Positions 4,119-32,537 of a stretch of 64,000 nt of DNA are shown piece after piece. The position numbers and the translations under genes are program-made. Position 1 is the stretch's first letter. Every line of letters begins with the position of its first letter. The stretch is from positions 1,364,001 to 1,428,000 of the forward strand of contig NZ_CP024870.1 of assembly GCF_002795265.1 (NCBI RefSeq). The letters run 5' to 3'. This stretch comes from Spiroplasma clarkii (GTDB lineage Bacteria > Bacillota_I > Bacilli_A > Mycoplasmatales > Mycoplasmataceae). A model generated the notes under the pieces. It was not told the origin of the DNA and made no database searches. It worked only from the letters and a program-made list of their open reading frames with translations.

Positions 4119-6164
4119 TTATAAATCTGTATCTGCAAAAACAATGTCAAAGGTTAAATCATCTTTAGTGTAATAAACAAAGGTTCCATTTTCAGGTGTT
4201 TCAAAACTAATTTTAAATCTTACTTTTGTTAGTTTAACCTTCATTCCTGTATAGATATTAAACTTATTACCACTAATTCCTTTGGTTTGTGATTCTCATT
4301 CACTTTGATCTTGGTTATAAAATTGAAAAACAAATTTAGCCTTATCAATTTCAATTGAGGCAATATCTAAATACTTTTCAGGAATGTTTAATTCTTTTAA
4401 CATCATTTGTGGACTTAGATTAATAAGAGATTGCAATGAAATTCTTGGTAGTGCCCCATTAATTGCTGAATTTACTTGTGTTGCAATTGTTCCAGCAATC
4501 GTTCCAGAAAATTGTTTTAAAATGAATTTGAAAGCATCATTTAAATCAGTACCATCAATAATTTCATCCATATTTAAATCATCCTCTTGAATAAATGTCA
4601 TATTTAAATCTGGACTAATAAATTCAGTGTTTAGGTCAATTGTTTCTGCACCATTCAATTCAAACATGGTATTAATAATTTTTGAAACAATTTGTCCTGG
4701 ATTTATGTTGATTTTACTTAACAATGATTCTAGTGAATCATCAAAAATTCTGGTTTTTCCTACCGCAGGCACTGTAACTCAAAGTTTTAAGTTAAAGTAT
4801 AAATTTACATCCGCTTTTGCTCTGTTTTTACTATTATAATCTAATAGCAAATTAAATAATAGTGAATCTAAACCTGTATAGGCTGCTGCAGCACTTCTAT
4901 TTTGAGAATTGTTTTTATCATTAATTGTTCTTAAATCAGGATCCATATCAATTAATAGCTCTTTTAGTAGTAAAAATACCATATTATGGCTACCACCCTT
5001 TGAGATATCATAAGTATCTGTATCTAAGAATTTTGCTAAAATTTTAACTAGATTTGGTGCTGCATTAGCAAGTAAATCAATAATTTTTAATTCTCCATCT
5101 TTACCTTTTGAACCAAGACTTAACTCTATATCAATAGTTGTGCTATCACTAACTACTTGAGTGTTAAAAGCACTGGTGTCAATTGAGACCAATTTAAAAA
5201 CATCTTGGTCTAAAATTTCTGAAATTTTTACCAGAACTTCTTGTCCAGCTTCACCAACAGGTAAACTAATAGTATCTGCCATTCCAAATTTCTTTAAAAC
5301 ATCTCCCACTCCTGCCAAGACTTCTTTTAAACCATTTCTAAAGTCCTGATTGAACTTTATATAGGTGTTATCACCTGGCTCAGCTTGAGCCAGGGCATGA
5401 ACATCAAGTTTAGTTAGATTTTTAATGGGTTCTAACACTGGTTTGATGATATCTGAAATTCCAGGAATTCCTCCCCCAGAATTTGGTCCACTAATTACTC
5501 CTAGCATTGTTAACATTGTACTTAGAGTTCCAAGTGTTATTTTTAAAGGGAAACCAATACTTGCAAGATCTACAATAGGAATATCAATTTTGCTAACATC
5601 ATAATCTCCAACAGCAGCATAACTGTTGGTATTTAATAGGTTTGTAACTGAAACTAATAACTCGTATTCAGGAATATTTCAATTCAATGATTGAGTTGAA
5701 AGTACTTTATTTAAGTACTTTAAATTTACAGTGGCAGTTCCTTTTCTAACATCAATTTCTTGTAAACTAACATTATTGTTATCATAACCATCAATTAAAG
5801 GGATTTGAAAACTGTTATCATTATAAATCTCAATTGATAAATTGGGGCCTTGAAAATTACATGCCTTGGTAATATATGCTTCTAAAGCACTTATATTTTG
5901 TTTACGGTTTGACTCAAGTTCTTCATTAATACTTTGAATTCTTGCTGTGCGAATTGGAGTTGCAATAACTATGTTAGAGATTGCTAGTTTTTCAAAAGCT
6001 GCAATACTTGTAGTCAAACCTTGGGCAATTCATTCACCCTGGTTTGTTTTGGTTTCAGTGTCAAATAAATCATCATAGTTTTCACTTCAACCACAACTAA
6101 CAGCATAACTTGTTGAGGATGTAATTAAGGCAAAACTGCCCATAATCGATAATAATTTTTTCAT
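4119..6164 (-). CDS. Lipoprotein, last gene of module C
   Basis: Predicted 681-residue surface lipoprotein of unknown function. N-terminus MKKLLSIMGSFALITSS is a typical mollicute signal peptide followed by lipobox AVSC, so Cys is the expected lipid-modified residue. The rest is hydrophilic with long amphipathic helices and repeated valine/leucine/aspartate segments, with no catalytic motif I recognise. Start supported by GAAAGGAG nine bases before ATG. It begins 13 bp after the stop of the giant FtsX permease, so the two are almost certainly co-transcribed. It broadly resembles the large alpha-helical lipoprotein at 13926-15872 and may belong to the Mollicutes 'MOLPALP' lipoprotein group, but that is a guess from composition. 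Confidence 0.85.
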
Positions 6165-6177
6165 AATTTGCTCCTTT

Positions 6178-9100
6178 CTAAGTACTTGTACTTAATGAAT
6201 CAATTGGTTTGATTCTAACAAATTGTTTAAATGAAATAATAATTGTTAGTAAATAGATTGCCACTAAAATCCCTAAAACTGAGATTGGGATCCAAAAACT
6301 AAAAGTATAAGGAATTACAAATGTGTAATTTGATGAAATAAATCCGACAACTTTTTTTAAACCAAACCATCCTAAAGTAAATCCTAAACCGTACATTGTT
6401 ATAAATGGAAGAACGTAAATTCCTAAAATTTGAATCATCACATACCGGTTAGTGTAACCTAAGATTTTCATTGTAGCAATGAATTGGGAATTTTCTTGGA
6501 TAATTAAAATTGTGGAGATCACAATAATAATTGTGGAAATTAACAGCGAAACTGCAGTTATAAAGTAAACAATTACTTTTAAGATAACTGCCACTTGTCT
6601 TAATAAAGTTCTTTTGTCACTTAATGAGTTAACATTTTTTAAACTGTTTTCTCCATATCCTACTGTATAGTTTATGGTTGAAGTCCCTGTATCATCAATT
6701 GTTACAACACTTGACCCCACTAAACCATTTGAACTGTAATCACCAAATGCTTGCGTGGTTGAAGCATTGATGTTTTGATCATCATAATGTTTTCCTATTG
6801 TATATTTATAATTAAAAACAGGATAAGTATTTTCAAAAATACTTCAAAAATATTGAGCCGATAAGGCATAGGCTTGAGGATCAATATCTCCTGGAGCAAA
6901 ATTTAAGAATGTGTTTTTAAAATCATCATAAGGATTATCTGCTGTTGAATTGTACTTATTAGCAGAATCTGCATTCTCTCATTGTTCCATAATAATGCTT
7001 AAGTAAACATTAAAGTCTTTTCATTCTTTCTCACTAATATCTCCCATAATATTTTCATCATAGCCTTCTAGTAAGGCTGGACTATCTCTTCATTCATTAA
7101 TAAAGAAGTTATTAAAGAAATATTTTTTAATTTGATCATATCCTAAAATTTTGTTGGCATTGTCATTTGAAATTCAAGCCTTAGATTCTCCATAATTCTC
7201 AGTAATACCAACAATTACAAACTCTTTATTTTTACCAATAAAGGTTTTTTTAATCTTTGAATCATTTGCTGCTGTTTGAATTTCACTATCTTTGTTAATA
7301 CCATCTATTGATTTAGATGCTATTGAGTGACCATTAATTGCAGCTGTTTGAATTTGCGATTGAGAATTTCAACCACTGTTTGTTGAGTTATAAGCAAAAT
7401 AATTTTTTCGTCCTTCTGCAATTATGTTGTTAGTTGTTTGAGTTTGGTAATTGTATTTTTTTTGAACTCCCATTTTAACATCATCCAAACCAATTTCTTG
7501 GTTCTCACCATCAACTAAGACTTTTTTCATAATGGAGATATCCATGGTGTCTCTAACACCAACTTGCATTTTCTCTGCAACTGTTCGGTTGATAATAATG
7601 GGTACATAATTTTTATAACCATCAGCTAAATTTTTAAATAAATTTGCTTTAATATCTTGTCCAGAGTGGTCTTTTAACTCTACTGCTGAACTTTCATCTC
7701 CAAGTCCATAGACTTTTAAATTTAATTCCTGGGTGTTTGTATGGAAAGTTCCATTCAACATTGTTCCAAGTTCTTCATAAGTTTCATCATAGGGTACAAT
7801 GTTTGTTGAAATGTTATAGCTAATTCCTTGTTCTAAAGCACTAACCATATTTTGTTGAACTGTGTTGTTTGAGTTTTGATATGTTGCCTCCATTAACACT
7901 GTACCTAATTTTGATTCAAAATGAATTCAATATCATAAAATTAAATTTGTATTAAAATTTTGATAGTCTTGTAAACTAAATGAACTTTCATTTAAGTCAA
8001 TTTTGGCAATATCTTCACCACCAAATTCTAAGGTATGTGAATCAAAATCAAAATTAGTTTTTACAAATTCACTTACCAGTGAATTTCATCTCTTTTGATT
8101 ATCCTCTTCACCTGATCTTAATGAAGAACCATAAAATTGATTTGCTTTTCCAACACTAGCTAATTTTAATGGTGTTTTAACTTCTAAATCGCTATAAATT
8201 TGGTTAGTTGATAACTCATAAAGTTGTTCATCATAATCCACAGCTAGAACTTTGTTAAGATCTAGTGCAGTTTTACCAGTATTTAAGTATTTATCATTGA
8301 CATGAATTGGAATTCCATTAACATATTTTTTATAAAAGTTTTGAAGTTCGTTTGCTGTACTTTTAACAGCATTTAAAACTCCACTTGTGGTTCCTCTAGA
8401 ATTTAAAGCAATAGCAAATCTTTCAATATCATTCATTAAATACTTGTAGTCTAATCACTGATTTGTGATTGTAGCAATTGCATTATAAGGAACCCCTTCG
8501 GCTTCACGATCGGGAATTTCTAATTCATCAAGTTTTTGTAAGTATTCAGTTGATAAAACTTTTCAGTTGGTGTAGTTATTACGAGCAATCTCGTAATAAC
8601 TCAAGAAGTTGTCATCTTGAATCACTGGAATATTGTATGAATAGTAATTACTATTAATATTGTTACTCATCAAATCATGAAGAATTGTTTTTGAATCATA
8701 CTCATAACTTGAATTATCCCTGTTATAAATTAAAGGGTAAGCTGTCATGTACTGCTGGGTTGAATTTGTAACTTCACTAATATCTGTCACTTTATTATTT
8801 TGGTTATAACTTCAAGTTTCATCATTGTTGGGGTTATAAGTTTTCATAAAGGTAGCAGGATTATTTGAAATTGGTTCAGTATATTCAACCACATCATCAT
8901 AATCTAACCCAGCAAAAACACCTTGGTTATTTTTTTCCATAACTGTTGGCATAATTGTTACTGCAGAAATTAATACTGTTGAAACCAATAAGGTTGTAGC
9001 AGTTGCTAAGATTTTCCCAGTCGATCCAATTAATAAAGCTACATGTAATTTTATATTTGGATTTGCACGAGCAAAAATTCGTTTCACACCTCTACCAATA

Positions 9101-10881
9101 AAAGTATTTTTCTTTGCCAGGTTTCCTTGTAATAGGGTTAGTGCTGATTGTTCAATTACTAAGTAAGCAATTATCAAAGTAATTAAAGACATTAATCCTA
9201 AAACTAAGAAGAAAACTAAGAATGCTTGCCAAGCAATGGCATCAAATGGCCTAAATAATACACTAAAGTAACTTCCAAATAAGTTTACATAAATATTTTG
9301 TAAACTTAATATTAAGATGTAAGCAATAACAAATCCTACCACCGAAATTACAATTGGCAGTGAAACAAAGTATGACATTAGTTTAAAGTTTGAATAGCCT
9401 AATGCTTTGAAAGTTCCTAATTTTGTTTTTGCTTCATCAATTTGTTTTTTTACAATTAACACAATTGTAAAGGTGGCAATAATTGCCAATAGCATAACTA
9501 GCATAATTGAAAAAACTCAATATGCTCAAATTACTTGGTTGTAAGCTGCAATTCGATAATAATACTGATATTCAGTGTCATCAATACTGTAAAATAATTT
9601 AATATTTTCAGTATTTAAATTTCCATAACGAACTCATTCACGATTGAATGCTTTTAAATATGAATCAAAATTAGCAGATTTATTTTTGAATTTACCAGAG
9701 AAAAAAACCTCTTTGTCACTTTCTGAATCTACTGTTAATTTTGAAGCTGCTAAATCTGATGAATAAATTTTAAATTGTTCATTTGGTTCAGATTTAATTG
9801 TTTCAAGTTTTAATCCAAAAACACCTGGATCTACATATGCCACCAAGTCTCGGTAAGCACTAGGGATTTTTGTTTTGGCATTGGTAATTGGATAAGTAAA
9901 ATCAATTGAAGTTCCAAAACCAATAACTTGAAATCAGGGTTGGTCTTTATAAATTGAATTGTCAATTCCATTGACATCATCATTTATACTTGTGCTTCCG
10001 CCAAACTGTAAGTCTTTAATATCTTGGTTAAGCAATAATTGACTTCCATAATTGTCAGGTGTTAACCTAACTATGTCTCCTCTTTTAATGCCATTGGCTT
10101 TGGCAAAGTTTGGTTGTAAGATGACTTCATGTTCTGCTTTGACTTTATCAGTTGAAAACATTTTATCTTGACTTTCATTACTTAAAACTATTTTGTCAAC
10201 ATTGACTGTTTCAACTTTTGAATCAGCATAAGTTTCATCAACATGACCTGTTTTTGAAACTACTTTAACATTTAAATCTCTTTCACCATTTTTTAAATTT
10301 CTAAAAGTTCTTGCTTCTGTTCTTGATCAAGTGAACAAACTATCTCCAATAATTTGTCCATTATCATTTGTAATTCCTTTTCTTGATAAAACATTAATTA
10401 AATACTGTTCAAATAAATCTTGACTTGAATAATTATCAATGTTTTCTCCACCAATTCATTGATCTTGGTTAAAATAAATTCGAGTAGTGTTATTCATATC
10501 AACCACAAAATCATGTTGCACAGAAGCTGTTTGTAAATCTTTATATCCTGCTTGAATTCTTGAGGCTGTTGTAATTGAAAACAAACCCAAAATTAAGGCA
10601 GAAGTTACTAAAAAACCTAGTCCAATTAATTGACCTAAATTTTTTAAAGTGTTTTTAAAACCTGCTTTTAAAATTAATTGTTTATATTTTGGTGGTTTAT
10701 CATCGGGTTGTGATTTTTTACTAGTTTTTTTTGAATTCTGAGCACTTTCACTTTCTAAACTTTCTCCTTGAATGCTGTCAACTCTATCTTGAAGAAACTT
10801 TTCTCTATCTGTTAATTTAAAATTATCAACCATGTCAAGAGAATCTGAATTGTTTTTGTCTGGATCAAAATAGTTACTCAT
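6178..10881 (-). CDS. Giant FtsX/MacB-type ABC transporter permease (module C)
   Basis: Predicted 1567-residue membrane protein. I walked the frame through every UGA-interrupted gap and found no UAA or UAG. Layout: acidic/polar cytoplasmic N-terminus (1-75), one membrane helix (about 80-105), a large extracellular domain, three helices at about 460-575, a further helix near 615-645, a second very large extracellular domain, and three C-terminal helices (about 1428-1552). This is two copies of the FtsX/MacB unit (one helix, ectodomain, three helices) in one chain. Family members work with an ABC ATPase to export or extract lipoproteins or peptides by mechanical transmission rather than classic transport. 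No ATPase lies nearby. It starts one base after the preceding stop, with no ribosome site visible, and it is followed at once by a lipoprotein gene. Confidence 0.88.
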
Positions 10882-10882
10882 A

Positions 10883-13000
10883 TTAATTAATATCTATTGA
10901 ATTAATTGTGACAGCATAATTTGATTTTAGTGTACTACAAGATGAGTGCTCAGCCATACTAGTACTTATAACAATTGAAAATTTTACAATACTTTGCCCA
11001 TTCTCAGTTGCAATTTTTGCACTATATTTAAATGATGAGGTTACATTTCAACCATCACCATTTTTTCCACAAGACCCTCATCAATTTCTAGATTCAAAAG
11101 GTACTCAAATTGATTTAGCTGTTCCTAAATCTTTATTTTCAATTCCTGCACCATTAAGCAATGACAAAGGAGTTTGTAAATCTCCAACTTGTTTTGCTTT
11201 TTCAAGTTCAGTTGCTGAAACACTTTGAAAAGTTGAAATGCTATTTGGTCTTAGTTGGTAAGACAAAACTATATTTTTCTTACCGGCAAGAATTGCATTG
11301 TTCAATCCATTTGGAATCACATATGAAAAGTCAAAACTTGAATTAGTAGCAGTCTTGTTCTGACTCATTACTGCTCATTCAATTGTTTGCATAGCATTAA
11401 ATTGTTCTCCATCACCTGTCCCACCTTTGAAGTTTGTCATATTGTGGTCTGTGGTTTTTTTAAAGTTTGTGTTAAAAGTAATTGTCACAGATCCATAATA
11501 ATTTATTGAACTGTTTTTTGCAGTTAAAACAATATTTGTATAACTTGGTTCTGAATAATCAATTTCTTCATCATTAAAACCTGCACCATTTTCATTTTTA
11601 ATTCTTTTAAGAATATCATCCTTTGTAGTTCAATAAAATGTTCTCAGGTCTGTGGTTCTCAATAGTTCACTTATGTTTTTACGCTTAACATCAAAACTCA
11701 TAGTGATTTTTCCTTGATAGCCAACAATTGAAATATCAAACTTATTGTTTCTAACATATGCATCAGCTGGTACAAATGAATTGTAAGCAACTGCTTCAGG
11801 TTTAATATTAAAATCAACAAGTTCTCTTAAAACTGGGTTCACTTCTTTAATTTTTTTAATCAACATAAGGTTAAGTGTTGCAGTATCCGCAGGAAGTAAT
11901 TCTAATTCTCCTAAATGTGTTTTTGAAACAATACCACTAATATCTCTAATTTGATAAGTCACTGTTGCAGTATCAGTTAAAACTCCAGGATTAGAAACTT
12001 TTGCAGAACCCAAAGTAAAATCAATTTGGGTGTTGCGGTAATTTCTTAAATTACCATAAATTGGGTTCTTAACAATAATTGCTGCTAAAATTGTTTCTCG
12101 ATCTAGTTTTTCTAAAACTCCTAAATCTGTATTGGTAATAATTGAAGTAATATCTTTGACATTGTAAGTTACAGTCAAGAAATTACCTGCATCCAAGCTA
12201 ACTAAGTTATCTTGGTAAAATAATTGGATTTTTGCATTTTCTGGTGATTGGTTACCTTCATCATAAATTTTTATTTGATAATCTTTTGTTAAATCAATAA
12301 AACTTGCTTGTGGATTCACATGCAATAAGGTTTTACTAATTCATTCACTTGAAAGGTCACTTGTGTCACCAAGATTGGTGTTCAAAAAGATTCCTTCCAA
12401 TGACATTGGCTCATAAGTCAATGTTATTTTTGAATTTGAGTCTGGCCTTGCGTCAACTCAATCCATTTCAATTTGATTAAGTGAAATAACTTGTAATTTG
12501 ATTTCACTTGACAAATCCGTATTTGAAATTATTTTATTCTTTTCTTTAATTTTATTGATAATTGCTTCATCAGTGATTTTAGCCACTTTACCTAAATCTT
12601 TATTAGCAATTAAACTATCTAAACTTGTAATTTTATAAGCTGCTTCAGCAGTACCTGTGTACTTTTCAACAGTAAATCTCACTTTTGATAAAGTTAATCC
12701 TTTGATATAGATGTTTAAATCTTTTAACTGGGGATTAACTTCTTTTAATTTAGCAATTACATTTTCTTCACTGGGGCTTTCAATAGCACCAAGAATTGAT
12801 GTGATGTCTAGAGTAGTTACATCTAAAAACCCTTGATTACTTGAACTGACATTGGTGTCAATGTCAGAATCTTGTGGGTTTGCATGATCGACTTTTTTAT
12901 TAAGACTATTACTAAAACCTCGCATTACAAAAACTGCGGGTACAGCAACTGCTGTCGTTCCTAAAGTAATAGAACCTAATATGATTATTAATTTTTTCAT
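10883..13000 (-). CDS. Membrane-anchored surface protein with internal repeats (module C)
   Basis: Predicted 705-residue protein. The N-terminus MKKLIIILGSITLGTTAVAV is a hydrophobic signal/anchor, but no lipobox cysteine follows, so it is probably an uncleaved membrane anchor. The body contains several degenerate repeats of 70-90 residues. They share a motif like I-x-(S/N)-T-x-L-G-x-(L/V), and several continue into an I-x-x-K-N-P or I-K-E-V-N-P helix (about residues 60-130, 135-215, 270-330 and 345-410). No enzyme motif seen. Start ATG has AGGGAGA eight bases before it. It lies between the small membrane protein and the giant permease, where module A has two lipoproteins; this suggests a shared surface-display role. 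Function unknown. Confidence 0.82.
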
Positions 13001-13050
13001 TCTTTTTTTCTCCCTTTAACATTTTTAATATTAAAGGTTACCATCTCAAA

Positions 13051-13761
13051 TTATGCAAAAATATTCAATTCTGGAGGTGTTGTTGATTTCTTTGTTTCAA
13101 CTAGTTTTCCAGACTGAATTTCTTGATAACGAATTAAATAAAGTCATTTTGTGTTTTTGATAAAAAAGTTAATTCTGTCATCAAATTCTTGAATATAGTG
13201 TTTTAAATCAAACACTAACAAAGTTAAGTAAAAATAACGTTTGTAGATTCTAAAAATTACTCAATCGACTTCATCTTCATAAGAAATTACCAATTGTTTG
13301 TGAATTAGTGAACCAAATACTAAATACATTAATGTTAAAGTTGTTACAAAAAAGACAGCCATTGCTAAGTATGGAAAGTAAACTCCAGTTAGAGAAGATC
13401 CATAGTAATACTTAATTAAAAAGTATGAATCTAAAACTTTGAAAATTACAAAAGGAATTGTTAAATCTGCTAATTTAATAATAATTTTTAAATTACTAAT
13501 TTTAAAAATTCATTTACAGTCATTTCTACTAATTGAGTTTTTATCAACAATTTGTAAAAACTTAGAATAAGTCATTACTAGGGTACAAAACATGATTGCA
13601 TCAAAAGCAAATGTAATCAATGGATTATGTAAAAAATACAAAAAGTAACTATTTAAAGCATGGATGGTATGAACATAATTTACAAATGAAATTGTATAAT
13701 GAAAAATTATGTAAAATAGAACTGCATTTAATAGCAGATTTACATTTTTATTATAATTCAT
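13051..13761 (-). CDS. Small four-helix membrane protein, TTPP family (module C head)
   Basis: Predicted 236-residue integral membrane protein with four hydrophobic segments (about 8-30, 48-68, 100-120 and 130-155) and a polar C-terminal domain of about 80 residues ending in STTPPELNIFA. Paralogous to the genes at 16086-16811 and 25637-26353: shared N-terminal FHYTISF, a shared LADLTIPFV/LIQLTIPFV segment, a K-R/K-Y/L-F-Y-L-x-x-L-x-F-D block, and the terminal T-T-P-P motif. I do not recognise a named family. ATG 13761 is preferred over GTG 13767 because AAGGA lies nine bases before the ATG. It heads the block of anchored repeat protein, FtsX permease and lipoprotein, starting 50 bp before the next gene. 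Confidence 0.82.
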
Positions 13762-13885
13762 AATCACACATCCTTCTCTTATAAAAGTTTAACCTAGAAT
13801 ACAACAAAAATCAACGCTATTGCCTAAAACTATCTTTTTTAATTTCCAGAATGAACTTATATCTAAGAATTTTTGATAAAAATAA

Positions 13886-13912
13886 AAACATAACTACAAA
13901 GTAGTTATGTTT
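13886..13912 (-). terminator. Terminator after the module B lipoprotein
   Basis: Perfect 12-bp hairpin AAACATAACTAC-AAA-GTAGTTATGTTT with A/T tails, 13 bp past the stop codon at 13926. Confidence 0.75.
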
Positions 13913-13925
13913 AAAAAATTTAAGT

Positions 13926-15872
13926 TTAATTGTAGACTATTTTTGAAATTACAAAGCTTTTGTTAACAGCTTCAATTTCAAAAGCTATCTGAATTCTACT
14001 ATTAATAGTTGCTTTATATTCTGTATCACTGATTGCAACAATCGCTGATGTTTTAATAGCTTCATAAGCTGTCTTGATGTCTTTGGTAATTTTTGTTTTT
14101 TGATTTTTTCCCATTGCTTGGATTTTTTCCATAATCCCTTTTAGCCCTTTTGCATCAGCAATAATTTTAAATAGTGCCTCAAGTGCTGGGTCAGAAAGTT
14201 TTGCAGAAATTCCCTCAACACTTGTAGGTAAATCAACTATGATATCCCCAATGTTTTTAAAGACTGCTGCTAAATTATCAAAGTTTAATTTAACATCATC
14301 TGCACCCATTGAATCAACTAATAGTTTTAAAATATCTTTAATTGACATATCAGCACCAGTATCAAGATCAATTAGGTCTAATCCCCCAGCTTGATTTAGT
14401 CCAAATAGTCCATTTAAAGGACTTGTTAAAATTCCTTTAAGACTGAAATCTCCCTCCAAACTAGCAAATACACGCAAAAATGTCCCCAGTGCATTTTTAC
14501 TTCATAGTTCTTTAATTGGGTCAGCATTTGTTAAAATACTTCCCAATTCATCAACATCCTTGTCACTTATCGCAGGTATTAAACTTGTAAATCCTTTAAT
14601 AGCACCTCCCAAAACTGTTCATGTACTAGAATCAAGCAGTGGGGTTCCTGTTGTAATCATTCCCAAAATATTGACTGAAATAGAACCAACATTTTCAAGC
14701 AAGTTACCTGATGATGGTGCTCCCGGTATGAATTTACCTAAATCCGCTTCAATTGTAACAGCTCCATTTATAATAGCTGCCACAAAACTACCCAAACCAA
14801 AGTCTTCATTTACATATTCATATGAATTTAAATTTTCTAGGTTTTTAAATAAATCTTCACTTTTATTTAAATATTTCCCATCATAAAACCCTGCTCTAGT
14901 ATTTAAAAATAGGGCTTTTAAAATATTTTTAATAGCTACTGGACCTGTTGAATCTTGACTAGCTCCAAATAAAGCATCATTTAATTTGATAACAACACCT
15001 TTTAAATCAAAAGTGGTGCTTGCAATTACTGCCTCTCTTGCTTTAATAAAGTCATCATTTTCTAAGTCTTTTGATAAATCTAATGTGAAAATATGGTTGA
15101 TGTATAATAAAGTCAATTTAAGAACATCAATGAATGCTTTTGAACTTTCAGCTGTCGCAAATAATGCAGCAAAATCAAATCCAGTTCCAGCAGTACTTAG
15201 TTTTTTAATTGTGCTAGTTAAACTAGTCATTGCTTGTGCAAATTGAGTTGCAGTAAAACTTGTGTTAACTCCAGCCACTTTGTTTATTTCATTTACTAAT
15301 TTAACCATTGCTTCATTGATTGCACTTGCATATGATTTTCCAATATATGAATTTGTTTCCAATGCAGTTCCAACATTTTTTAAAATAGCTCCAACACTTT
15401 GCATTTCTGCTTTTGCTTCAGCAGTAACCCCTGTTTGTAAATTAACATTATACATTTCTAATGCTTCTTTAATTGCATTAGTAACTTGGGCTTTTTTATC
15501 TCCACTTGCATCAAGTCCTAATAATTTTGCAGTGATTGCTAAAATTGCTGTAATCTCATCTGAGTCACTTGGTTGTTTTCCAACAACATTAGCAAATCCT
15601 GATAAAGTTGCTGAGTCTCCAATCAACTTGTCTTTAAAATATTTACTGTAATTAGTTTTTATTGTTTCATTTTTAAATGAGTATTCTTGTAAAACATAAT
15701 CCATATTGTAGCCTTTTGTTTTGTTTAAGTAAACTGCTTTACCAATTTCTTCTAAAACTCCACTCATTTCAGCTTGATTAACTTTTAATTCAGTGTCTCC
15801 ACAGGCAATAACTGTTGCTGTTGTTGAAGCAATCATAGTTAATGCACCTAATAATGATAATAACTTTTTCAT
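13926..15872 (-). CDS. Large alpha-helical lipoprotein (module B)
   Basis: Predicted 648-residue lipoprotein. Signal peptide MKKLLSLLGALTMIASTTAT then lipobox VIAC. The mature part is rich in Ala, Leu, Lys, Thr and forms long predicted helices with no catalytic motif I recognise. True start is ATG 15872, preceded by AGAGG; a longer open frame upstream to 15974 lacks a ribosome site and would bury the signal peptide. Module B contains just this gene and the small membrane protein to its right. It resembles the lipoprotein at 4119-6164 in size and helical character, so the two may be distant paralogues. Function unknown; surface exposed by inference. Confidence 0.87.
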
Positions 15873-16085
15873 ATTCTTTTTACCTCTTCTAATAATTTTA
15901 AGAAAATCAACTTTTGTTAAGATTCTTTTTTGGTGTTTAATCTTGTGATTGAAATTGTTTTTTGGCAATTTCAATCAACTTATTTTTTGCTGATAAAAAT
16001 TTATAGTTTTGATTAATGTCGTATTTAAAATTACAAAAAATTCACACACTTTCAATTTGTGATCTCTGTAAAAATAAAATTTGCT

Positions 16086-16811
16086 TTAAAAATTATTTAT
16101 GTTCTCAACCTCAACAACTAGTGGAGGAGTTGTTGACTTTCTAACATTAATTAAAAAATTAGACTTAATTAAAGTAAATCGTATTAAATAATTTGTACTT
16201 GTCTTTTTAATAAAGTAATTAATTTTTTTCTCAAATTCAGTTTCATAATTTTTAAAATCAAAAATTAAGATTGCTAAGTAAAATAGTTTTTTATAAATAT
16301 TAAAAAATAAGTAATCAACTTCACAATCTTGGGTTATTACAAGTTTATGATATGAAAATGTTAGACATGCAACATAAAGAAAGGAAACAATTGACACCAC
16401 CATAACCATTACAGCTAAACAAGTGTAGTACACATCTGTGAGTGAAGTTGACAAGTAGTATTTTAAGAAAAAGTAAGTATCTAGTGATTTAAAAAGTACA
16501 AAGGGAATTGTTAATTGAATTAGCTTGAAAATCAAATTTAAATTATTAAACTTTAAAACTCAATGTAAGTTTTTATTTGTTAGTAGATTTTTATCTAGCA
16601 TTTGCATAAAACTCACAGAGCAAGTTAGCAGTAAATAAACAGTTAGAGTATCAAAAAGGAAAAGCAGCATTGGGTAACTGCTTACATAAGTAAAGTAATC
16701 ACTCAATGGTGTTAAAGTATGGATTCTATTTATAAATGAAATTGTGTAATGAAAAACAATACAAATTATCAAACAATTTCAAAGCAAATTAAAATTTTTA
16801 GACTTACTCAT
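16086..16811 (-). CDS. Small four-helix membrane protein, TTPP family (module B head)
   Basis: Predicted 241-residue membrane protein, second member of the paralogous family (see 13051-13761, which it resembles most). Shared features: FHYTISF near residue 20, L-I-Q-L-T-I-P-F-V, a cytoplasmic-looking segment with FYLAILIFDFKNY, and a C-terminus with KSTTPPLVVEVENI. Four hydrophobic segments. Start ATG 16811 follows GAGGT at a five-base distance. The next gene on the strand is the helical lipoprotein, after a 213-bp gap in which I see no other gene. Confidence 0.82.
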
Positions 16812-16914
16812 AACACACCTCGTTCATCACTATGAGTTTAGCCTACTTTTATGTGAAATGCAACTCCATTAGAATCAAGGTTTTAATCTCTCTTGCTTTC
16901 AAAACTTCAAAAAT

Positions 16915-16941
16915 AAAAAAGCAATTTTACAATTGCTTTTT
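16915..16941 (-). terminator. Terminator ending the module A operon
   Basis: Hairpin AAAAAGCAATT-TTAC-AATTGCTTTTT followed by T-rich sequence on the minus strand; it contains the stop codon of the preceding lipoprotein. Confidence 0.75.
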
Positions 16942-17964
16942 AAAATTAAAATAACTAAAAGTAATTGTAATTCCATCACTATCATTTAAATAGTGAGCAA
17001 AATTATCATACTCAGCATTTTGTTCCTTTGGTGTTAGAGGTCTATTTTGTCATTCATATGGTTTGGTTTTAAAAGTAACCTCATATTTACTATTTTCCCC
17101 TACACTAGGTTGGACAGTTATTAAATCTAAATCATTGATTAGAACTCCTAAGTAATTGTACAAACCTAAGTTGCGAGTAATTAAATACATCAAAATAGAA
17201 TAAGTATCATTTTTATCCACTGTTGCTAAATCAGTTTCTAACTCTCCAACTAGTTGGTCAAGTTTAATTCCTCAAGTTCCTGTTGGAGATACAGGTTCAC
17301 CACTTGCAGAAAATCCTAAATTTAAACTACCATAAAAACTAGTAGGAATTTCTTGTGGGACCACATCATCAACTGCTAAAGTAGCACCAATTACTTCACC
17401 TTTTTCATTATAGTTATATTCATAATTGTCAACTGCAGTAAGTTGTTCAGCAATCTCAGTAATTTTCCCTAAAGAATTTAGGTTTTTTTCCATTAAGGCA
17501 GTTAAAATACTTTTTGGACGATAGTCAAAAATTGCTCCTAATTGTGTCACCCTAAAGTTATCTGCAAGATGTTTGGAATTTGAAATTGTTAAGTTAGCAA
17601 TAATTTGATCAGAACTATTTTGTTTGTTGGTAATTATAAACTGGTAGTTACCATTGCGAAATAAATCTGCATCCATAGTTATTGCAGTACCATCTTTACT
17701 TACTTGATAATCAAGATTTTGTAAATCATAATCTGCTTGGACCAAGATTTTATCTAAATCATGTAATAAATCTACATTGTATGAATATCTTTCAATATCA
17801 ATTTTATCAAGACTAACATTAGCAAATCCTGTTTTGCTGATTGGCAAAATTGGGTCAGGGCGATAAAAGTCATCACTGAAATCGCAACCAACTACCTGGC
17901 TGACTCCAACCATAAGACTAATTCCTTGTAAAAAAACTAGATATTTTTTAAATCATTTTTGCAT
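16927..17964 (-). CDS. Lipoprotein following the module A permease
   Basis: Predicted 345-residue lipoprotein. N-terminus MQKWFKKYLVFLQGISLMVG, then lipobox VVGC at about residue 27. A perfect AGGAGG precedes the ATG; a shorter start inside the signal peptide at Met18 would remove its basic part. The mature region is a mostly beta-type hydrophilic protein with no motif I recognise. It begins four bases after the stop codon of the FtsX permease, so the ribosome site overlaps the permease end and translation is probably coupled. It holds the same place after its permease as the 681-residue lipoprotein does in module C. Function unknown; a partner of the permease is a reasonable inference. Confidence 0.85.
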
Positions 17965-17968
17965 CTTT

Positions 17969-20900
17969 TTAACCTCCTTGAATTGCCAATAAAGGACTAA
18001 TTCTTTTTAATGATCCTCAAGACATTGAAACACTAATAGCATACAATATTCAAGCCACTAAAATTCCTGGTAAAATAAATCATCATTGGAAAGTAAATGG
18101 TAAAACTACAACATTGGTAATTGAGGTTAGCATCAAGGTTAACGATAACCAACCAACCACAAACCCAATTACTGAAGCTAACACCACTATTGGAATGTAG
18201 GTACCAATAAAGAGTTTTGCTAAATAACCTTCTTTATAACCTAAAATTTTCATAGCTGCAATTACTTTTGCATTTTGAGCAATAACCAAGTTAATAATCA
18301 ATAAAATAATTACTGCACTTAGTACCAAAGCAATTAGTATGATAAAGTAAATGATACTATTAACTGTTAGGTTAATTCTACTCATCACTTTTAAAGCTTC
18401 ATCAATTTGTAAAGCATTTTCAATTGCAGCCTTAGCATAACCTGAATAAACTTTATTGTTTGATGAAGTACCTCCATTTAAACCGTACATTGAAAAGTCT
18501 CCAAAGACTTGGGTTGTACTAACTCCTGCTGAGATATCTAAAAAATCACTATTTTGAGAAGTTTTGTAATTAAAGAGAGGATATTCATTTGTAAACAAAG
18601 TGTAATATTTTGAATACTGTTCACTCTCAGTTCATTCTTTAAATGCTTGAAAATCAAAATCTGGATCATTCATTTTACTTATAAATTCACTATCAGTATC
18701 ACTTTGCTTTTGAGGCTTTTCTCATTCTTTTTTAAAGACTTCAAATAGTTTAGCTTGGGTTTGATCAAACCCAGCAATACTTTTTGCTAAATCATTATTA
18801 ATTCAAGCTTTATTTTCACCATATTGGTCATGAATTCCCACAACTTTATAAGTTTGAGTTACAGTTTTTGTTCCCAAAGTAACTTCACCATTGTCAACTT
18901 TTTGACTCATAGCATTTGGTGCAGTTTGGTTTGCTGCGGTTGGGTCTGCTTGAGAATGATAAACTCCTCCTGTTTCATTGATTTGTGTATTTAATCAATC
19001 ACTTGGATTAGAATGAGTTTCTAATAAAGAATTGTTATAAAGGTTTTTAGAACTAGTGAATCCTGCACTATCTTGGGCTTTTAACTGTTGTGTGTCTCAA
19101 CTGTCAACTTGGATTTCTTCTCCTTGATGTTTTAATGCTTTTAAAACATTATCAATATCAAGTTCATCACCAACTTTGGTATGTAACCTTTTTGCTAAAC
19201 TTTGATTAATGACAATAGCATTTTTTGTATCATTAGCAAATAATTTCGGTTTTAAATCTTCACCCTTAGCAGAAACTAACTGTTGGTTTTTGTGATCTGC
19301 TGCAATCCCATAAATTTTTAAAGTTTGACCATGGGTTGCACCAGCAAAATAAACTCCTAAATCATCAGTGGTTGCACTATAAGGAATTAAATTAAAACCA
19401 ATAGTGAAGTTACCAACTTCTTTGTCAAATTCTGCAGTTATCCGGTCTTGGATTAAATGTGGTGAAGCAGAGTAAATTCCTTGTAAGAAGGCTTGTTGTA
19501 AATTGTTGAAAAACATAGCTACAAATCAATTATAAATTGGTACCATAATTTCAATTCTTTTTAGTCTAAAAGCAGTATCGCTAACTCCTTCATCAATATA
19601 GTTATAAAGTGAATCATTGAAGTTGACATTAGATTTAATTGAACCATCATTATTTAATTGAATGGTTCTTTGAAAATCTCCTGCATCTGCTCGACTTAAG
19701 TATGCTGGATTTTGTTGTGATAGGATAGTTCCACTAATGTAGTCTGGTCTTCAAAAGCTACGAGCAATACCAATTGTATTTTTATATTTTAAATAAAAGA
19801 GTCTGATTTTTTCTAAATCCTCAACCCTTTCTTTGGCTAGTGTATTGCTGTTTAATAATTCAACAAATTGATTTTTGTCTCAATATGTATCTAAACCATA
19901 TGCTGTTAAATCTTGTCATAAGTTTATTGCAATTGCTTTGTAATAACTACTATTAACTGCTTGACCTGTACCAATTGTTAGATTGGGGTTCTTTAAAAAA
20001 TCAATTCCAAAACTTTTATAAGTCATGTTACCTAAAGTTGCTAAATTTGTATCAGCACTATATGCTTGCGCTGAAATTTGATTTTGCACATACATATCAA
20101 TTAATTGTGAACTTGATAAATTTTGAAAATCTAATTGTGGTGCTGTGGGGTCATAAGTTTTGTAAAAACTAACAGGACTGTTATAAACTGGACTTTCATA
20201 TTCAACTAAATTATCAAAGTTATTTCCTGTATATAATTTAGCCTTATTTTCAGTTAAGATGACACTTAACAATGATCCAATTGTTAGTAAACCTGTGGCA
20301 ACTAACATAACATTAAAAACAGCTACAAGTTTGGCAATTGAACTTGATAGCATTGCTCCTTGAAAACGAGCATTAAAACTTTTACGACGAGTAAAGATTT
20401 TTTTAACTGCTAACTTGAAACGATTAGTAGCACTATGGTTCTCATAGTTTATCATTTTTAAGGGTGAGGTTGAATTTAAAACTGAGAAATAAACTGTCAG
20501 AGTAATTAACTCTAAGAAAACAAAAATCCCAAACAAAGTCACAAACAATGTCTCTCAGGTAAAGGTAAAGGGCTGCATTGCTACTGCAAAGTACCTGTTA
20601 ATGATATTAATAACGATACCTTGACAAACTAATCCCACTAAAAAACCACCAAGTCCACCAGTAAAGGTAATAAATAATGGATATAAACTATTAGATCATA
20701 TTAGTGACGACTTTTTATAACCTAGGGCTGTTAAAACTCCCATTTGACCAAAACTTTTTTTAATTTGGTTATTTAACATAACTACAAGCATTACCACACC
20801 AATTGACATTACCACACCAATAATTATGTAACTAAAAACTTGGTAAGCCACAATTGTAGTTTGCAACAATGTTGTTCTTTGACCATAACGATAGTCTAAA

Positions 20901-22042
20901 CTACCTTGTAGAGTTACTAAATTTTGTTGTGGATTCACCACATTGACAAATCCAGCATGTAAACAAATTTTTTTTGCTTGATCTAGGTCAGTTAAATAAC
21001 TGTTAATTGTTTTTGCTGCCACATCAACATCCACTTGGTTGTTGAATTTACCAACATAATAAATTTCTTTTTCTTTATCTGAACTTAACTTCAAAGTTTC
21101 TTCACTGGCAAGATCTCCATTGGTGTATCAAATTCGAGTATTTTGGGTATTAACCATCTTGTCATTGTCAGCAATTTTTTTAATGCCTTCATCACTTGAA
21201 GCCACCACATCTAAATAACTGTATTTTAACCCAAAATTTTTGGGACTAACATAGACTAATGCTTCATTTGTAGTGTTTGGTAATGGTTTGGTTTGATCTA
21301 CAATTGGGGTTGCAAAGTCAACACTTGTAGCATAACCAACAACTTGAAACCAGTTTTGACTTGCATATTCAGTTTTATTAATAATATAGTTGATATCCAT
21401 ATTATCAAACAAGCTAGTGTCAACTGGTTTGTATTCTGAATCCTTAACTTTAATTGAAGTTCCATAATCATCATCTTGTAAACGAATAACATCGTTTATT
21501 TTGATATTGTTTGCTTCAGCAAATTGTTGATTAACGTAAACTCATTTTTTAGTATAATCATTACTTGCTAAGCTATATTGTTTTCAAGAAGTAAGTTCCA
21601 TTCCCTTAGTCACTACAACTCGGTCAATATTTTGTTCAGGGTTCAAGGCAAAAACTTTTAAAGTTTTTCCTGAACTCAAACCAAAGTTTCGCGCTTCAAC
21701 TCGATCAAAAGTAAAGCTTTCTGTTTTTGAAGCTAGTTGATTTTGTAAGTAACTTAATAATAAGTTGTTTCGCACTTCTTGGTTTGAAATTCCTTTAAAA
21801 TCATCAGCATTATAATTATTTATGTAAGAAGTAGCATTTAAGTCTACTACAAAATCATGTAAATTACTTGCAGCTGGTGAAGCAAAGTTTTGGTACGAGC
21901 GATTAATTCTTGATGAAGAGGTATATGCTAGTGTAAAAATAAATGAAGTTATAAAAACCAAAATAATTATTGCCACTAGTTGAATTTTATTTTTTATTAA
22001 GTTTTTAAAAGCATTTTTAAAGAATGGTCTTTGTTGGCTCAT
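17969..22042 (-). CDS. Giant FtsX/MacB-type ABC transporter permease (module A)
   Basis: Predicted 1357-residue membrane protein, paralogue of 6178-10881. Frame checked through most UGA-rich gaps with no UAA/UAG found. Layout: basic N-terminus FFKNAFKNLIKNK, helix at about 16-38, an extracellular domain of about 360 residues, helices near 400-420, 455-480 and 499-522, a further helix near 566-595, a second large extracellular domain, and three helices near 1190-1325 with the segment MKILGYK between them. It shares with the module C permease the phrases HDFVVD after helix 1 and N-x-P-x-(S/T)-F-x-K-T-Y after the central helix. ATG 22042 is chosen (AGGAGG seven bases before) over the TTG one codon earlier. 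No ATPase is adjacent; family members need one in trans. Confidence 0.88.
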
Positions 22043-22137
22043 CAATTTTCCTCCTAAATATATATTTTGCTTCCTAAAGTAGTCAGCAATAGTTTAAACA
22101 AATAAAATTAACTTAAAGTGAATTTTATTGTCTCTTG

Positions 22138-23781
22138 TTATTCAATAAATTTACTTAAATCATAAACCCCTAATTCTCCATCAAAGTTATATTTTGAGTT
22201 CTCAAAGTTTTCATCTTCAAAATCTTCAATTGAGCCTTTAATCATTAAAAACCATGCTATTGCATCATGTCCATACAAAATATTTGAACCTGGAATAATT
22301 GATAAACCAGGGAAATCTTCATTGTCAATGAACCTAGCATACTCAGTAAAGTGCTCTAATGACACTGTTTTTTTAAAATCTTCATTTAGATTTTGATAAA
22401 TAATCTTCACAGCAGTTTGAGCTGCTTGACGATTTGTTAAGGCAGCCTCATAATCAGCTTTTGTAATTTTATGGGTGACTGTAATATCTTTAACAGCATC
22501 TCTGAAACTCAAACGATCTTCTAAACTAAATCTTAGGTTAAATACTAAAGGTTTAGTTGAAGTTAGAATACAAAATGATGGAAACTCATTAATTGTGTAT
22601 GAGGAAATTTGCATATTTCCTCCTAAAATTTTAAATGCTGCACTTGGATCTGTTAAAACATTGGTTTTTAAATACTCAAAAATTTTATTTCGAGCTCCTA
22701 TATTTTCAAAAATCATTGAGGCCAAGGCAGTTCTACCATCAGGGTCCGCCATTACCTCTTGCAGTCTTTCGAAAGTACCTTTTGTCAATTTTACATCTCC
22801 AATATTTTTGTTTATGAACAAGTCATTAACATCAACATCTTGATTTAAAACTAAACTCATAGTTCCTTTAATATTTTTAGCATTACTTTGAGCGGCTAAT
22901 GTCACTATTTTTCCAATCCCATTTGTTCCGCCATTTTGTTTGATTGTGACATCTTGAGGTGATAAATTTAAATTATTCATTAAATTAAATGAGTCAAGAA
23001 CTGATTCATCAGAAACCACAGTTTGTGGTTTACCAATTGCTATAGTAGGATCAATCAGCTGATTGTTCATGTTTCCTGCTAAAATATTTGTGACAAAATT
23101 GTCATTTTCCAAGTCAATTGTTCTTTGGTTTATTTTTAATTGCACTAAGACACTGTGATTTGAGTTTTTTGAAACAACATTCATCGTCAAATCAGTACTT
23201 GCATCTTTATTTGTTCTAATAATAATTTCTTTGGTTGCTGTATCAATTGATGCAGTTGCCAAATTTTCTTTATTAAATGTAATTGTGCTTGGTCAATTTT
23301 CAGTTGCAAGATAGTTAAAATTAGTAATTCTAAGTTTTACAATTGCATTGGTTTGTAAAGTTAAATTTGTACTTGCTAAAGTAAACTCTGTTTCAACAAC
23401 TGCTTCGACAACTTTAATATTAATTGTGGCAGTAAAACCATTCTGTGATGCTAATTTAACTTGAAGATCTCCAAGAAAATCATCTTGAATTAAGGTGAAG
23501 ACTAAAACTCCTGCTGTTTCATCTAGATTAACAGCTAAAAAGTTTTTATAGTCATCAACATTCTCTTGAATTGTTGGGTATGAACTTTTATCTAAAATAT
23601 TAAAGTTTTCAATTCCAACTTCTCTTGGATTTTTAGCATCCATTTCAAAACTTGATGTTGCTAATTTAAATGCCCCTTTTGGGTTATTGTATTGACCACT
23701 ATTGTTACAAGCCACAACGCTTGTAACTCCTGTTGTTGCAACCAAACTTGTGGCCGCTAAAATTTCTAATAATTTTTTCAT
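22138..23781 (-). CDS. Ig-like lipoprotein with LYGHDA motif (module A)
   Basis: Predicted 547-residue lipoprotein. Signal peptide MKKLLEILAATSLVATTGVT, lipobox VVAC. The first 180 residues look like two beta-sandwich (bacterial Ig-like) repeats, each starting F-x-L-x-(S/T); the C-terminal part is a mixed domain ending with IPGSNILYGHDAIAW and an acidic tail. It is clearly paralogous with 23880-25541: same order of segments, shared LAGNM, NNLNL, F-x-K-I-L/F-G and PGS-x-x-LYGHDA blocks. The two genes are tandem, 98 bp apart. Ribosome site GGAAG is modest. Function unknown; surface adhesin or substrate-binding roles are only guesses. Confidence 0.85.
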
Positions 23782-23879
23782 TTCATTACTTCCATTTCTT
23801 TATTTTAATTATTAAAATTTGCAAATCTAATAGATTTTTACATCACTTAAAATCTAATTAATTGCTCTATTATTATACT

Positions 23880-25541
23880 TTAAAAAATATCAAATCTTAT
23901 ATTTATAGCATCTATATATTTTTTATCTTTTGGTTCATATTTTTTATCTTGAGATGCTATGAAAAATCCATATGCAAGTGCATCATGTCCATAAAGTGAA
24001 CTAGAACCAGGTAAGATATCAAAGTAGTAATCCTGACGTGCTTTTTTAATTCTAGTAAACTCTTTAAATGTTGCAAATCCCACCTTTTGTCTAAAATCCT
24101 CTGACATTAATTCATCATAAACCTTTTGTTGAATTACTTCACGTTTTTCAACATCAAACATTCCACCATCTAATAGATCACGATCAACTTCAACCTTACT
24201 TTTACTATCTCAACCATCTAAGAAAGTAATACGATCTTCTTTTACAAAAGTGAATGTAAACTCTAAATCTTCTTTTACAAAAATCCCTCCAAATTCTTGA
24301 AATGCTAACTTAAAGCTTGTTTTGCTCATTCTTGACTCAAAACTCATACGCAATGACTCAGCCAATCCAAGAGGTGCAAAAAATATTGGTTTTAAATATT
24401 CCATTGATTTATTTCTTGAGCCAACATTTTCTAAAAGCTGTGCTATTAGAGCAAGAGGTCTTGTATCAGATTCAGGATTTGCTTCAAGAATTTCTTCAAG
24501 ATCATCATAATACTCTTCAAATATTCTTACTTCTCCTACATCTCATTTATTCATAATAGAAGAAGGGGCAATTTCTCGATTTGTAATTACTTCAATTGAT
24601 CCTGTAACTGAGCTACTCTTTGAACTAATTTCTCAAACAGAACCCATACCTTTACCTTCAAAATCGGTATCAACCACATTAATATCAATATCCTCTAATG
24701 TTAAATTTAAGTTATTTGCAATATTGAATGATGTAATAATAGATTCCTTTGTTATTACATAACTATCATCCTGACCAAGTACTTGGTCAGGGATAATTAC
24801 TCCATCTTTCATATTGCCAGCTAGAATTCTTGTTTCATAGTCTGCATCATCTGAACCTAAATCTATTATCTGTTTAATAATTTTAACTTTGACATTTCTA
24901 GTGACATTGTTATTTTCATCACTAACTGTTAGTGTTAAATTATTTGTAGCTTTTCCATTTGTTCTTACAATGATTTCTTTATTTGGTAAATCAATTTCTG
25001 CCGATGCAAAATCTGGAGTATCAAAACTTACAGTAGAAGGATAATATGTATTGTCTGGTAAAATATCAAAGTTTGATATTTTGATGACATTTATTGTGTT
25101 TGAGTTAAATTCAACATCATTACTTTCTAATGCAAACTCAGTTTCTGTAAGATTTTTAATTGTTGCTTCAACAGTTTGTGAATGTTTGTTCTGAGCTTGC
25201 TTAATTGTGATAGTGATAGTTTTATCAATTAACTCCTCATTTGCCTCTAAAACTCTAAATATTAATGATTTTTGCGCTTTATTAAGTGAAACTTCAATTA
25301 TATTTGGTTCTGAATATTCAAATAATGATGGCAATGCCTCATCATTTAAAATACTATAATTTTCAATTGCAACTCCTTTTGAATATGAAGTTGAATTGTG
25401 AATATCAAATTTATTTGTTGATAATTTAAATGCTCCATCTGGTTTACTATAAATATCATTAGTACCACAGCTAACCACAGCTGTAATACCACTTGTAGCC
25501 ACTAATCCCGTTGCGGCTAATAATCCTAATAATTTTTTCAT
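23880..25541 (-). CDS. Ig-like lipoprotein with LYGHDA motif, tandem paralogue (module A)
   Basis: Predicted 553-residue lipoprotein. Signal peptide MKKLLGLLAATGLVATSGIT, lipobox VVSC. Two Ig-like beta repeats in the first 220 residues, then a domain shared with the downstream paralogue, with PGSSSLYGHDALAY near the C-terminus and a charged tail. Ribosome site AGGGG nine bases before the ATG. It follows the small membrane protein of module A by 95 bp. Gene duplication of this pair is evident from colinear motifs, with strong divergence in between. No enzymatic motif seen. Confidence 0.85.
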
Positions 25542-25636
25542 AATTTTTTATTCCCCTAAATTTAAAAATTTGCTTGTATATAATTTTATTTTGCTATTAC
25601 AAGTTATTTGTAATAGATCTTTTTGTTTATAAAGTT

Positions 25637-26353
25637 TTAAATTACATAAGGAATTATTGGTGGTAAAGTCGCCTTTTTATTTATAACTTGACGTAATTGT
25701 TTGTTTCAATTTATAACCATAATTTGTTGTTCATTAACAATTTTGATGTAAATTTGAATTTTTTCATTTTCAACAATTTTATTTTGAACATTGTTTTGTG
25801 TTTCAACCTTTTTACATTCAATAACTAAACTTGAAATCAATAAAAAACAAAGACCAACTTCATCTTCTAAAAATTCAATGTGGTTTCTACCAATTAAGTA
25901 AGCCACAGTTAAGTACATGATTGCTGAAGTCAAAATTAAGGTAATAGCAATTGTGATAGCTAAAACCACAAAAACATCTAATGAAAAGCTTAGATTTACC
26001 CCATTAAAAGCAAAGAAAGTTGATAAATAAATTATTGTAAATAAAACTAGAGTTGGTAATACTTTGCTTATTGTTCAAATATTTTTATTTAATTTTTGTC
26101 ATGCTAAAATATTAATCATTAATGAATTTTGTTCAATAATTCTTAAAACTTTTGCAGTTTGGATAATTAGAAAAATTACAACTGCAGATGTTAAAAAAAT
26201 ACTTACAATTGCAGCAAAATAGCCTTCAAAAATACTAATTCTTATGTTGAATAGCTGGTTAATATTCCCAGCAATTGCCACTAAGACATAAAGCAGCGAG
26301 GAAATATTGATTGTAGTCAACAAAAATTTCTTACATAATATAAAATTTTTCAT
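25637..26353 (-). CDS. Small four-helix membrane protein, TTPP family, divergent member (module A head)
   Basis: Predicted 238-residue membrane protein with hydrophobic segments at about 10-30, 43-65, 97-115 and 125-155, then a polar tail ending KKATLPPIIPYVI. The layout and terminal T-x-P-P match the two paralogues at 13051 and 16086, but sequence identity is low. AGGGGAATAAA precedes the ATG. It is the first gene of module A and is divergent from the DUF2130 gene, with a 238-bp shared upstream region. Function unknown; its repeated position at the head of each surface-protein module suggests a helper in insertion, export or assembly of the following products. Confidence 0.78.
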
Positions 26354-32400: not shown

Positions 32401-32537
32401 TATCATTTTCAAGTAAATCCTTGTCAGCTAAACAATGAAGTGTCATTGTTGAATGAAAATAAAATCATAACAAAGATTGGGACATAAATGAATAACATTA
32501 TTAATGCGAAGTAACTACTTTTGATGAATCTTTTCAT
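29430..32537 (-). CDS. potCD: Fused spermidine/putrescine ABC permease and substrate-binding protein
   Basis: Predicted 1035-residue fusion, read through with UGA=Trp and no UAA/UAG. Residues 1-245: PotC-type permease with six hydrophobic segments and the coupling-loop pattern RDLGATPRQTFYRVILPTLLPS. Residues about 246-573: a lysine/glutamate/alanine-rich coiled coil. Residues about 580-605: a membrane helix. Residues about 606-1035: PotD-type periplasmic-like binding domain starting DLVIGNWGNYI and holding a strongly acidic insertion (near EEEDEEEST). The fusion keeps the binding domain at the outer face; PotC-PotD fusions are known in mollicutes, but the length of the coiled-coil linker is striking. 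ATG 32537 has AAGGA before it and overlaps the end of potB by 37 bases. Confidence 0.92.

Follow-up and report, generated by a model that had tools for sequence, protein, structure and literature searches.

Four-helix membrane proteins with a conserved C-terminal KKxxxPP motif head surface-protein operons in Spiroplasmataceae and are candidate cis-acting leaders

Why would three consecutive blocks of surface genes each begin with a copy of the same small membrane protein? The question is raised by an array in a stretch of 64,000 nucleotides (nt) of Spiroplasma clarkii (NZ_CP024870.1, positions 1,364,001 to 1,428,000; hereafter, the window; genome size 1.56 Mb), whose genes were called with a simple script and read with genetic code 4. 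On the minus strand, between positions 4119 and 26353, a four-helix protein that we denote SMALL opens each of three blocks, or modules; in modules 1 and 3 it is followed by exported proteins, a giant FtsX permease and, last, a closing lipoprotein (Table 1). Gene order, strand and sizes are as described in an earlier, sequence-only reading of this DNA, which suggested that the array is a dedicated surface-display or lipoprotein-transport machine that diversifies by duplication. Here, we propose that SMALL most likely acts in cis as a leader, not as a subunit of a transporter, and is plausibly a membrane-inserted translation-arrest peptide.

The three small proteins belong to one family, as that reading assumed: S241 and S238b share 45% identity (E 1e-67), S238a and S238b share 23% (E 2e-4), and a profile made from the three, searched against the whole genome, recovers all of them. 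Iterated profiles yielded an alignment of 102 members, with matches in 46 or 53 of 60 Spiroplasmataceae genomes, depending on the profile, and weak, partial matches only outside this family in an order-wide search of 320 genomes. Neither single SMALL sequences nor a set of 49 members gave a useful match in Pfam, NCBIfam or PDB. By these searches, SMALL is an undescribed conserved family, confined to Spiroplasmataceae as far as searched. AlphaFold2 models from shallow alignments (7 sequences for SMALL and 5 for the lipoprotein Lp345) were too poor for use, with a mean pLDDT (predicted local distance difference test) of 50 and 44, respectively.

Most SMALL proteins are 229–241 residues long (middle half 232–241), and the body, with four hydrophobic helices by hydropathy, shows only ~15% identity between members. 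Conservation is concentrated in the C-terminal ~30 residues, with the tail S..L...KK[AGS]TTPP followed by the stop codon 1–12 residues after PP; the information content per column is 2.4 bits in the motif block vs 0.92 in the body. Among the 102 members, the two prolines are each conserved in 96% and the two lysines in 95% and 93%. Counted from the first proline, the preferred residues are F/Y at −29, L/I at −28, N at −24, I at −21, I/V at −17, N at −16, S/T at −12 (86%), L at −9 (78%), K at −5 and −4, A/G/S at −3, T at −2 and −1, and P at 0 and +1, and in the middle half of the family 66–73 residues separate the last helix from PP. The same loci contain 1,360 genes other than SMALL, and in their 466,843 residues [KR][KR]xxxPP matches twice; the sole C-terminal match is in a gene with four transmembrane (TM) segments directly 5′ of a giant FtsX gene.

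The position of SMALL is also fixed. The next gene is co-directional in 113 of 113 cases and encodes a lipoprotein (44), an FtsX protein (41), another exported protein (5) or another SMALL (2), the remainder being mostly miscalled exported genes or valS-like genes, which follow SMALL in about ten genomes. The association of these families that the sequence-only reading expected in related genomes is found there: giant FtsX proteins are present in 60 of the 60 Spiroplasmataceae genomes searched, and, among the 80 giants of the examined loci, 64 have SMALL at the operon head. The SMALL-FtsX pair also occurs in named loci of S. phoeniceum, S. poulsonii and Mesoplasma seiffertii. The modules come as SMALL-LP alone (LP, lipoprotein), SMALL-FtsX-LP, SMALL-LP-FtsX-LP, SMALL-FtsX-LP-SMALL-LP and SMALL-LP-FtsX-SMALL-FtsX, the last two being examples of the suggested diversification by duplication. 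The SMALL counts draw on related sequences rather than independent events, and the number of divergent clusters used for spacing (31) is the more honest one.

A further regularity is the gap that follows SMALL. The very short gaps noted earlier within the blocks are found mostly among the genes downstream of SMALL (those flanking the permeases measure 1, 4 and 13 nt, with larger ones of 98 and 92 nt between Lp553 and Lp547 and ahead of FtsX1357), but SMALL itself lies 50–213 nt from the next gene in every case in the window. Across genomes, SMALL has 62 close junctions (gaps no longer than 60 nt) with the next gene; a single one, in a divergent member and probably through a start-codon miscall, is shorter than 19 nt. 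The share below 19 nt is 91% when the first gene encodes another polytopic membrane protein, 84% when a gene other than SMALL precedes a lipoprotein gene and 78% for all other close pairs. From the PP codons to the next start codon, the minimum is 39 nt in the 31 clusters, and a longer SMALL tail goes with a shorter gap in a weak inverse relation (Spearman −0.37, p 0.04); one of these clusters, that of S241, entered with a miscalled start, its true gap being 213 nt. The minimum junction would accommodate a ribosome stopped at PP and leave the Shine-Dalgarno (SD) site accessible. A promoter scan gave matches at chance level.

SMALL combines a membrane body that varies in sequence, a conserved peptide at the C-terminal end close to the stop codon, a place that is always upstream and a junction kept free. 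These are features of regulatory arrest peptides, and we therefore propose arrest or pausing in SMALL as the likeliest mechanism. The SMALL tail would pause the ribosome at the PP codons during membrane insertion of SMALL, and the paused ribosome would keep the SD of the next gene free; without it, pairing of the SD with the CCNCCN proline codons is predicted. In this way, the state of membrane insertion, or that of the surface machine, would control translation of the surface gene behind SMALL, the downstream products being lipoproteins and single-chain type VII (MacB-like) ATP-binding cassette (ABC) permeases that may form mechanical, surface-acting complexes. In RNA models, pairing of the next SD with the PP region is 0.43 vs 0.07 at control junctions, and with a stalled ribosome modeled at PP the SD accessibility of 0.31 reaches the control level, 0.50. 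That each block is an operon led by such a pausing, cis-acting membrane leader has, in our judgment, a little less than an even chance. The broader proposal, that four-helix KKxxxPP arrest peptides are a new class of nascent-chain regulators specific to Spiroplasmataceae, which head surface operons, sense membrane insertion or the state of a giant MacB-like machine and gate lipoproteins and giant permeases powered by one ATPase, is advanced tentatively and falls somewhat short of even.

Several observations weigh against arrest. The SMALL motif is no known arrest sequence (not RAPP/RGPP), and a few members have one proline or an altered motif (KKGDEIP, KKRLFPK, SKRSSNPQ). A four-helix body of ~235 amino acids (aa) and tight length is large for an arrest peptide, which points to a function of the finished protein. 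After synonymous recoding, the predicted pairing is still 0.33 vs 0.43 observed (p 0.02), and SD accessibility is not significantly altered, so that the pairing appears to be largely a by-product of the CCNCCN proline codons. No convincing short leaders without TM segments were found upstream of the giants that lack SMALL. Finally, SMALL is no obvious regulator in the group linked to valS, because a T-box is present in the valS leader region (two loci).

In the main alternative, SMALL is a stable accessory subunit, whose cytosolic KKxxxPP tail docks a partner (e.g., a shared LolD-like ATPase or the Sec machinery) for assembling or powering the neighboring lipoprotein or FtsX, each surface gene having its own partner beside it. 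We consider this possible, on the doubtful side. The four helices, the length and the helix-to-motif distance are tightly conserved, as is the motif at the protein level, the even number of helices would put the tail in the cytosol, and a shared ATPase is available in every genome; however, SMALL lies 5′ of its partner in every case and, unlike other genes in the same operons, is hardly ever tightly coupled to it, it also occurs beside lone lipoproteins and valS, 16 of the 80 giant FtsX genes have no SMALL in the operon, and the SMALL body is nearly unconserved, whereas subunit interfaces usually are conserved. The same considerations bear on the dedicated machine of the sequence-only reading: the gene association is strong, but SMALL is not bound to the permease, given the lone lipoproteins and valS-like genes, and the modules have no ATPase of their own. 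The conserved C-terminal peptide, the fixed position in cis and the minimum spacing are more in keeping with a regulatory leader than with a structural component of such a machine.

Coupling purely at the RNA level, in which the C-terminal codons are an anti-SD strand that hides the next start and is opened by translation of SMALL alone, with no peptide-dependent stalling, would account for the pairing of CCNCCN with the downstream SD above the control junctions. This explanation is weak once synonymous recoding is considered, and we regard it as unlikely. Proline codons at the motif follow background usage and recoding alters accessibility little, the KK, S and L positions are kept as amino acids despite synonymous and K/R changes, and such coupling would be inefficient across long gaps (100–230 nt). 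Because codon choice is near background and recoding keeps most of the pairing, selection acts chiefly at the amino-acid level. Arrays of lipoprotein genes and duplications are common in Mollicutes, and the blocks could be plain duplicated surface-antigen operons with SMALL as an unrelated, hitch-hiking membrane gene; this is very improbable, because the association is found repeatedly, across genera, loci and types of partner, with the motif nearly invariant and the gene order fixed, and the neighborhood counts disfavor it. A T-box or riboswitch as the conserved element was rejected, the Rfam T-boxes being limited to the valS leader region in two loci (L138 and L172).

The valS-linked genes correspond to a subgroup of longer SMALL proteins (256–284 aa, mostly with KKGTxPP or KKSTTPP; L131, L138, L140, L146, L148, L172, L173, L216, L219 and L222), which are located 3′ of two other membrane genes and 5′ of a ~880-aa gene that is valS by Pfam in one locus and was assigned by size and position in the others. 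An element, TACAAGTGT, recurs 3′ of the SMALL stop codon in this subgroup. In another subgroup (L158, L162, L209, L210 and L213), SMALL has a more hydrophobic C-terminal part, with up to six predicted helices, carries KKETTPP or RKETTPP and lies 5′ of two related exported proteins of ~380–390 aa. There are also degenerating copies: in one locus (L057, genome G042), SMALL and FtsX-A are both broken, and in another (L070, genome G024), SMALL is split, yet its motif-bearing C-terminal half is open ahead of an intact FtsX-A.

Few gene regulators are known in Mollicutes, and how these bacteria control their surface lipoproteins is for the most part unexplained. If the proposal is correct, one type of leader, placed ahead of many surface operons and marked by its invariant C-terminal peptide, would offer a simple and general point of control and would add a new kind of arrest motif, linked to a multi-helix sensor. 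SMALL resembles the arrest peptides SecM, MifM, VemP, ApdP and CliM and RAPP-like upstream open reading frames (PMC10987492, PMC12992588, PMC13183943) in being a small membrane or secretory frame directly 5′ of a gene for membrane machinery, with a variable N-terminal part, a conserved motif near the C-terminus that ends in prolines and predicted masking of the next SD. Small secreted and membrane proteins encoded upstream of diverse genes show an enrichment of RAPP-like motifs close to the C-terminus (PMC12992588), and in MifM and CliM a stem-loop masks the next SD and is opened by the stalled ribosome (PMC13183943). There are also differences: the RAPP-like core R-A/G-P-P (or RAGP/RAPG) is absent from SMALL, where KK[AGS]xxPP has the basic residues at −5/−4 and mostly T,T before PP, the SMALL body has four helices (~235 aa), and the targets are giant FtsX or lipoprotein genes rather than sec or yidC. 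Mollicutes are not mentioned in PMC10987492, and a literature search on Spiroplasma FtsX operons and on leader or arrest peptides found no paper on point among those searched.

FtsX1357 and FtsX1567 are homologous over their whole length (30% identity), and each contains two PF02687 domains, ~8 TM helices and two large extracellular stretches; the only solved relative found with the FtsX-A profile is MacB (5gko/5ws4, E 7e-5). They share with type VII ABC permeases (MacB, LolC/E, FtsX, BceB) the PF02687 domain and, in each half, TM1, a large extracellular domain and three TM segments, and differ from them in having both halves in one chain of 1350–1570 residues, very large extracellular domains, dedicated lipoproteins and no adjacent ATPase. 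From this domain layout, the giant FtsX protein appears to be a single-chain pseudo-dimer of a MacB-type permease. An Lp345-like lipoprotein follows FtsX-A at 1–15 nt in most Spiroplasma loci. In many relatives (genus labels g1, g5, g11 and g12), the giant lies behind genes sized and ordered like ECF transporter genes and truA, which NCBIfam identifies as such in L050 (and truA also in L075), and some of these giants are 5′ of two genes of 151 and ~134 residues, taken as rplM-rpsI by size and position. Several loci of this type have the order truA-SMALL-FtsX, which may be the older arrangement. A cluster of short lipoproteins (165–203 aa; L046:2525-5646) lies just 3′ of the second FtsX-A/Lp345-like module of its genome.

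No ABC ATPase is encoded inside the modules, and none of MacB/LolD type beside the giants within the window. In a relative (L050), the neighbors of the giant are the ECF transporter genes and truA rather than a MacB ATPase. The closest LolD-like ATPase of the genome scores 201 bits (the next one 155), below the curated LolD cut-off of 307.75, which argues against a LolCDE exporter; to our knowledge, Mollicutes have no outer membrane. This orphan ATPase (G000:C1:17629-18636, i.e., at 17.6 kb; L229:1192-2205) has a Lys/Ala/Pro-rich N-terminus, is flanked by an hslO-like and a dihydrouridine synthase-like gene (named by eye from the sequences), is single-copy in 60 of 60 genomes of the family and is next to a giant FtsX gene in none of the loci examined. 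It seems a reasonable inference that one LolD-like ATPase, encoded elsewhere, probably energizes several giant permeases in trans, which would provide the giants with a probable shared motor.

Table 1. Genes and motif codons of the three-module array, in the direction of transcription within the window.
Module	Feature	Positions	Strand	Description and basis
1	S238a	25637..26353	-	SMALL leader protein (putative), 238 aa, 4 TM, first gene; ends KKATLPPIIPYVI
1	KKATLPP	25658..25678	-	C-terminal motif codons of S238a; sequence
1	Lp553	23880..25541	-	Lipoprotein, lipobox AVVSC; 31% identity to Lp547
1	Lp547	22138..23781	-	Lipoprotein, lipobox SVVAC; NF038029 lipoprotein signal
1	FtsX1357	17969..22042	-	Giant fused type VII ABC permease, FtsX-A orthologue group; ~8 TM, two large extracellular domains, two FtsX domains
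1	Lp345	16927..17964	-	Lipoprotein; follows FtsX-A in most genomes, gap 1-15 nt
2	S241	16086..16811	-	SMALL leader protein (putative), head of module; homology, family profile
2	RKSTTPP	16122..16142	-	C-terminal motif codons of S241; sequence
2	Lp647	13926..15872	-	MOLPALP-like lipoprotein, only partner of S241; TIGR04547 N-terminus, NF038029
3	S238b	13051..13767	-	SMALL leader protein (putative), 236/238 aa, head of module; homology, family profile
3	KKSTTPP	13072..13092	-	C-terminal motif codons of S238b; sequence
3	Surf705	10883..13000	-	Exported, hydrophobic N-terminal anchor, no lipobox cysteine; orthologues 5′ of FtsX-B elsewhere (L061)
3	FtsX1567	6178..10881	-	Giant fused permease, FtsX-B group, cytosolic N-terminus of ~80 residues
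3	LpC681	4119..6164	-	Closing lipoprotein

The window lipoproteins have clear lipoboxes, and Lp553 and Lp547 are tandem paralogues. NCBIfam recognizes the signal region of LpC681, Lp647 and Lp547, whose signal peptide and lipobox match the MOLPALP/LP_plasma lipoproteins of Mollicutes (TIGR04547, NF038029); these matches are N-terminal only, and the mature proteins are not recognized. For Lp647, the start at 15872 is preferred, a longer TTG frame not being the true start. Outside the array, positions 29430-32537 of the window encode a 1035-aa protein that is apparently a fusion of a PotC-like spermidine/putrescine permease and a PotD-like solute-binding domain, with a coiled-coil linker between them.

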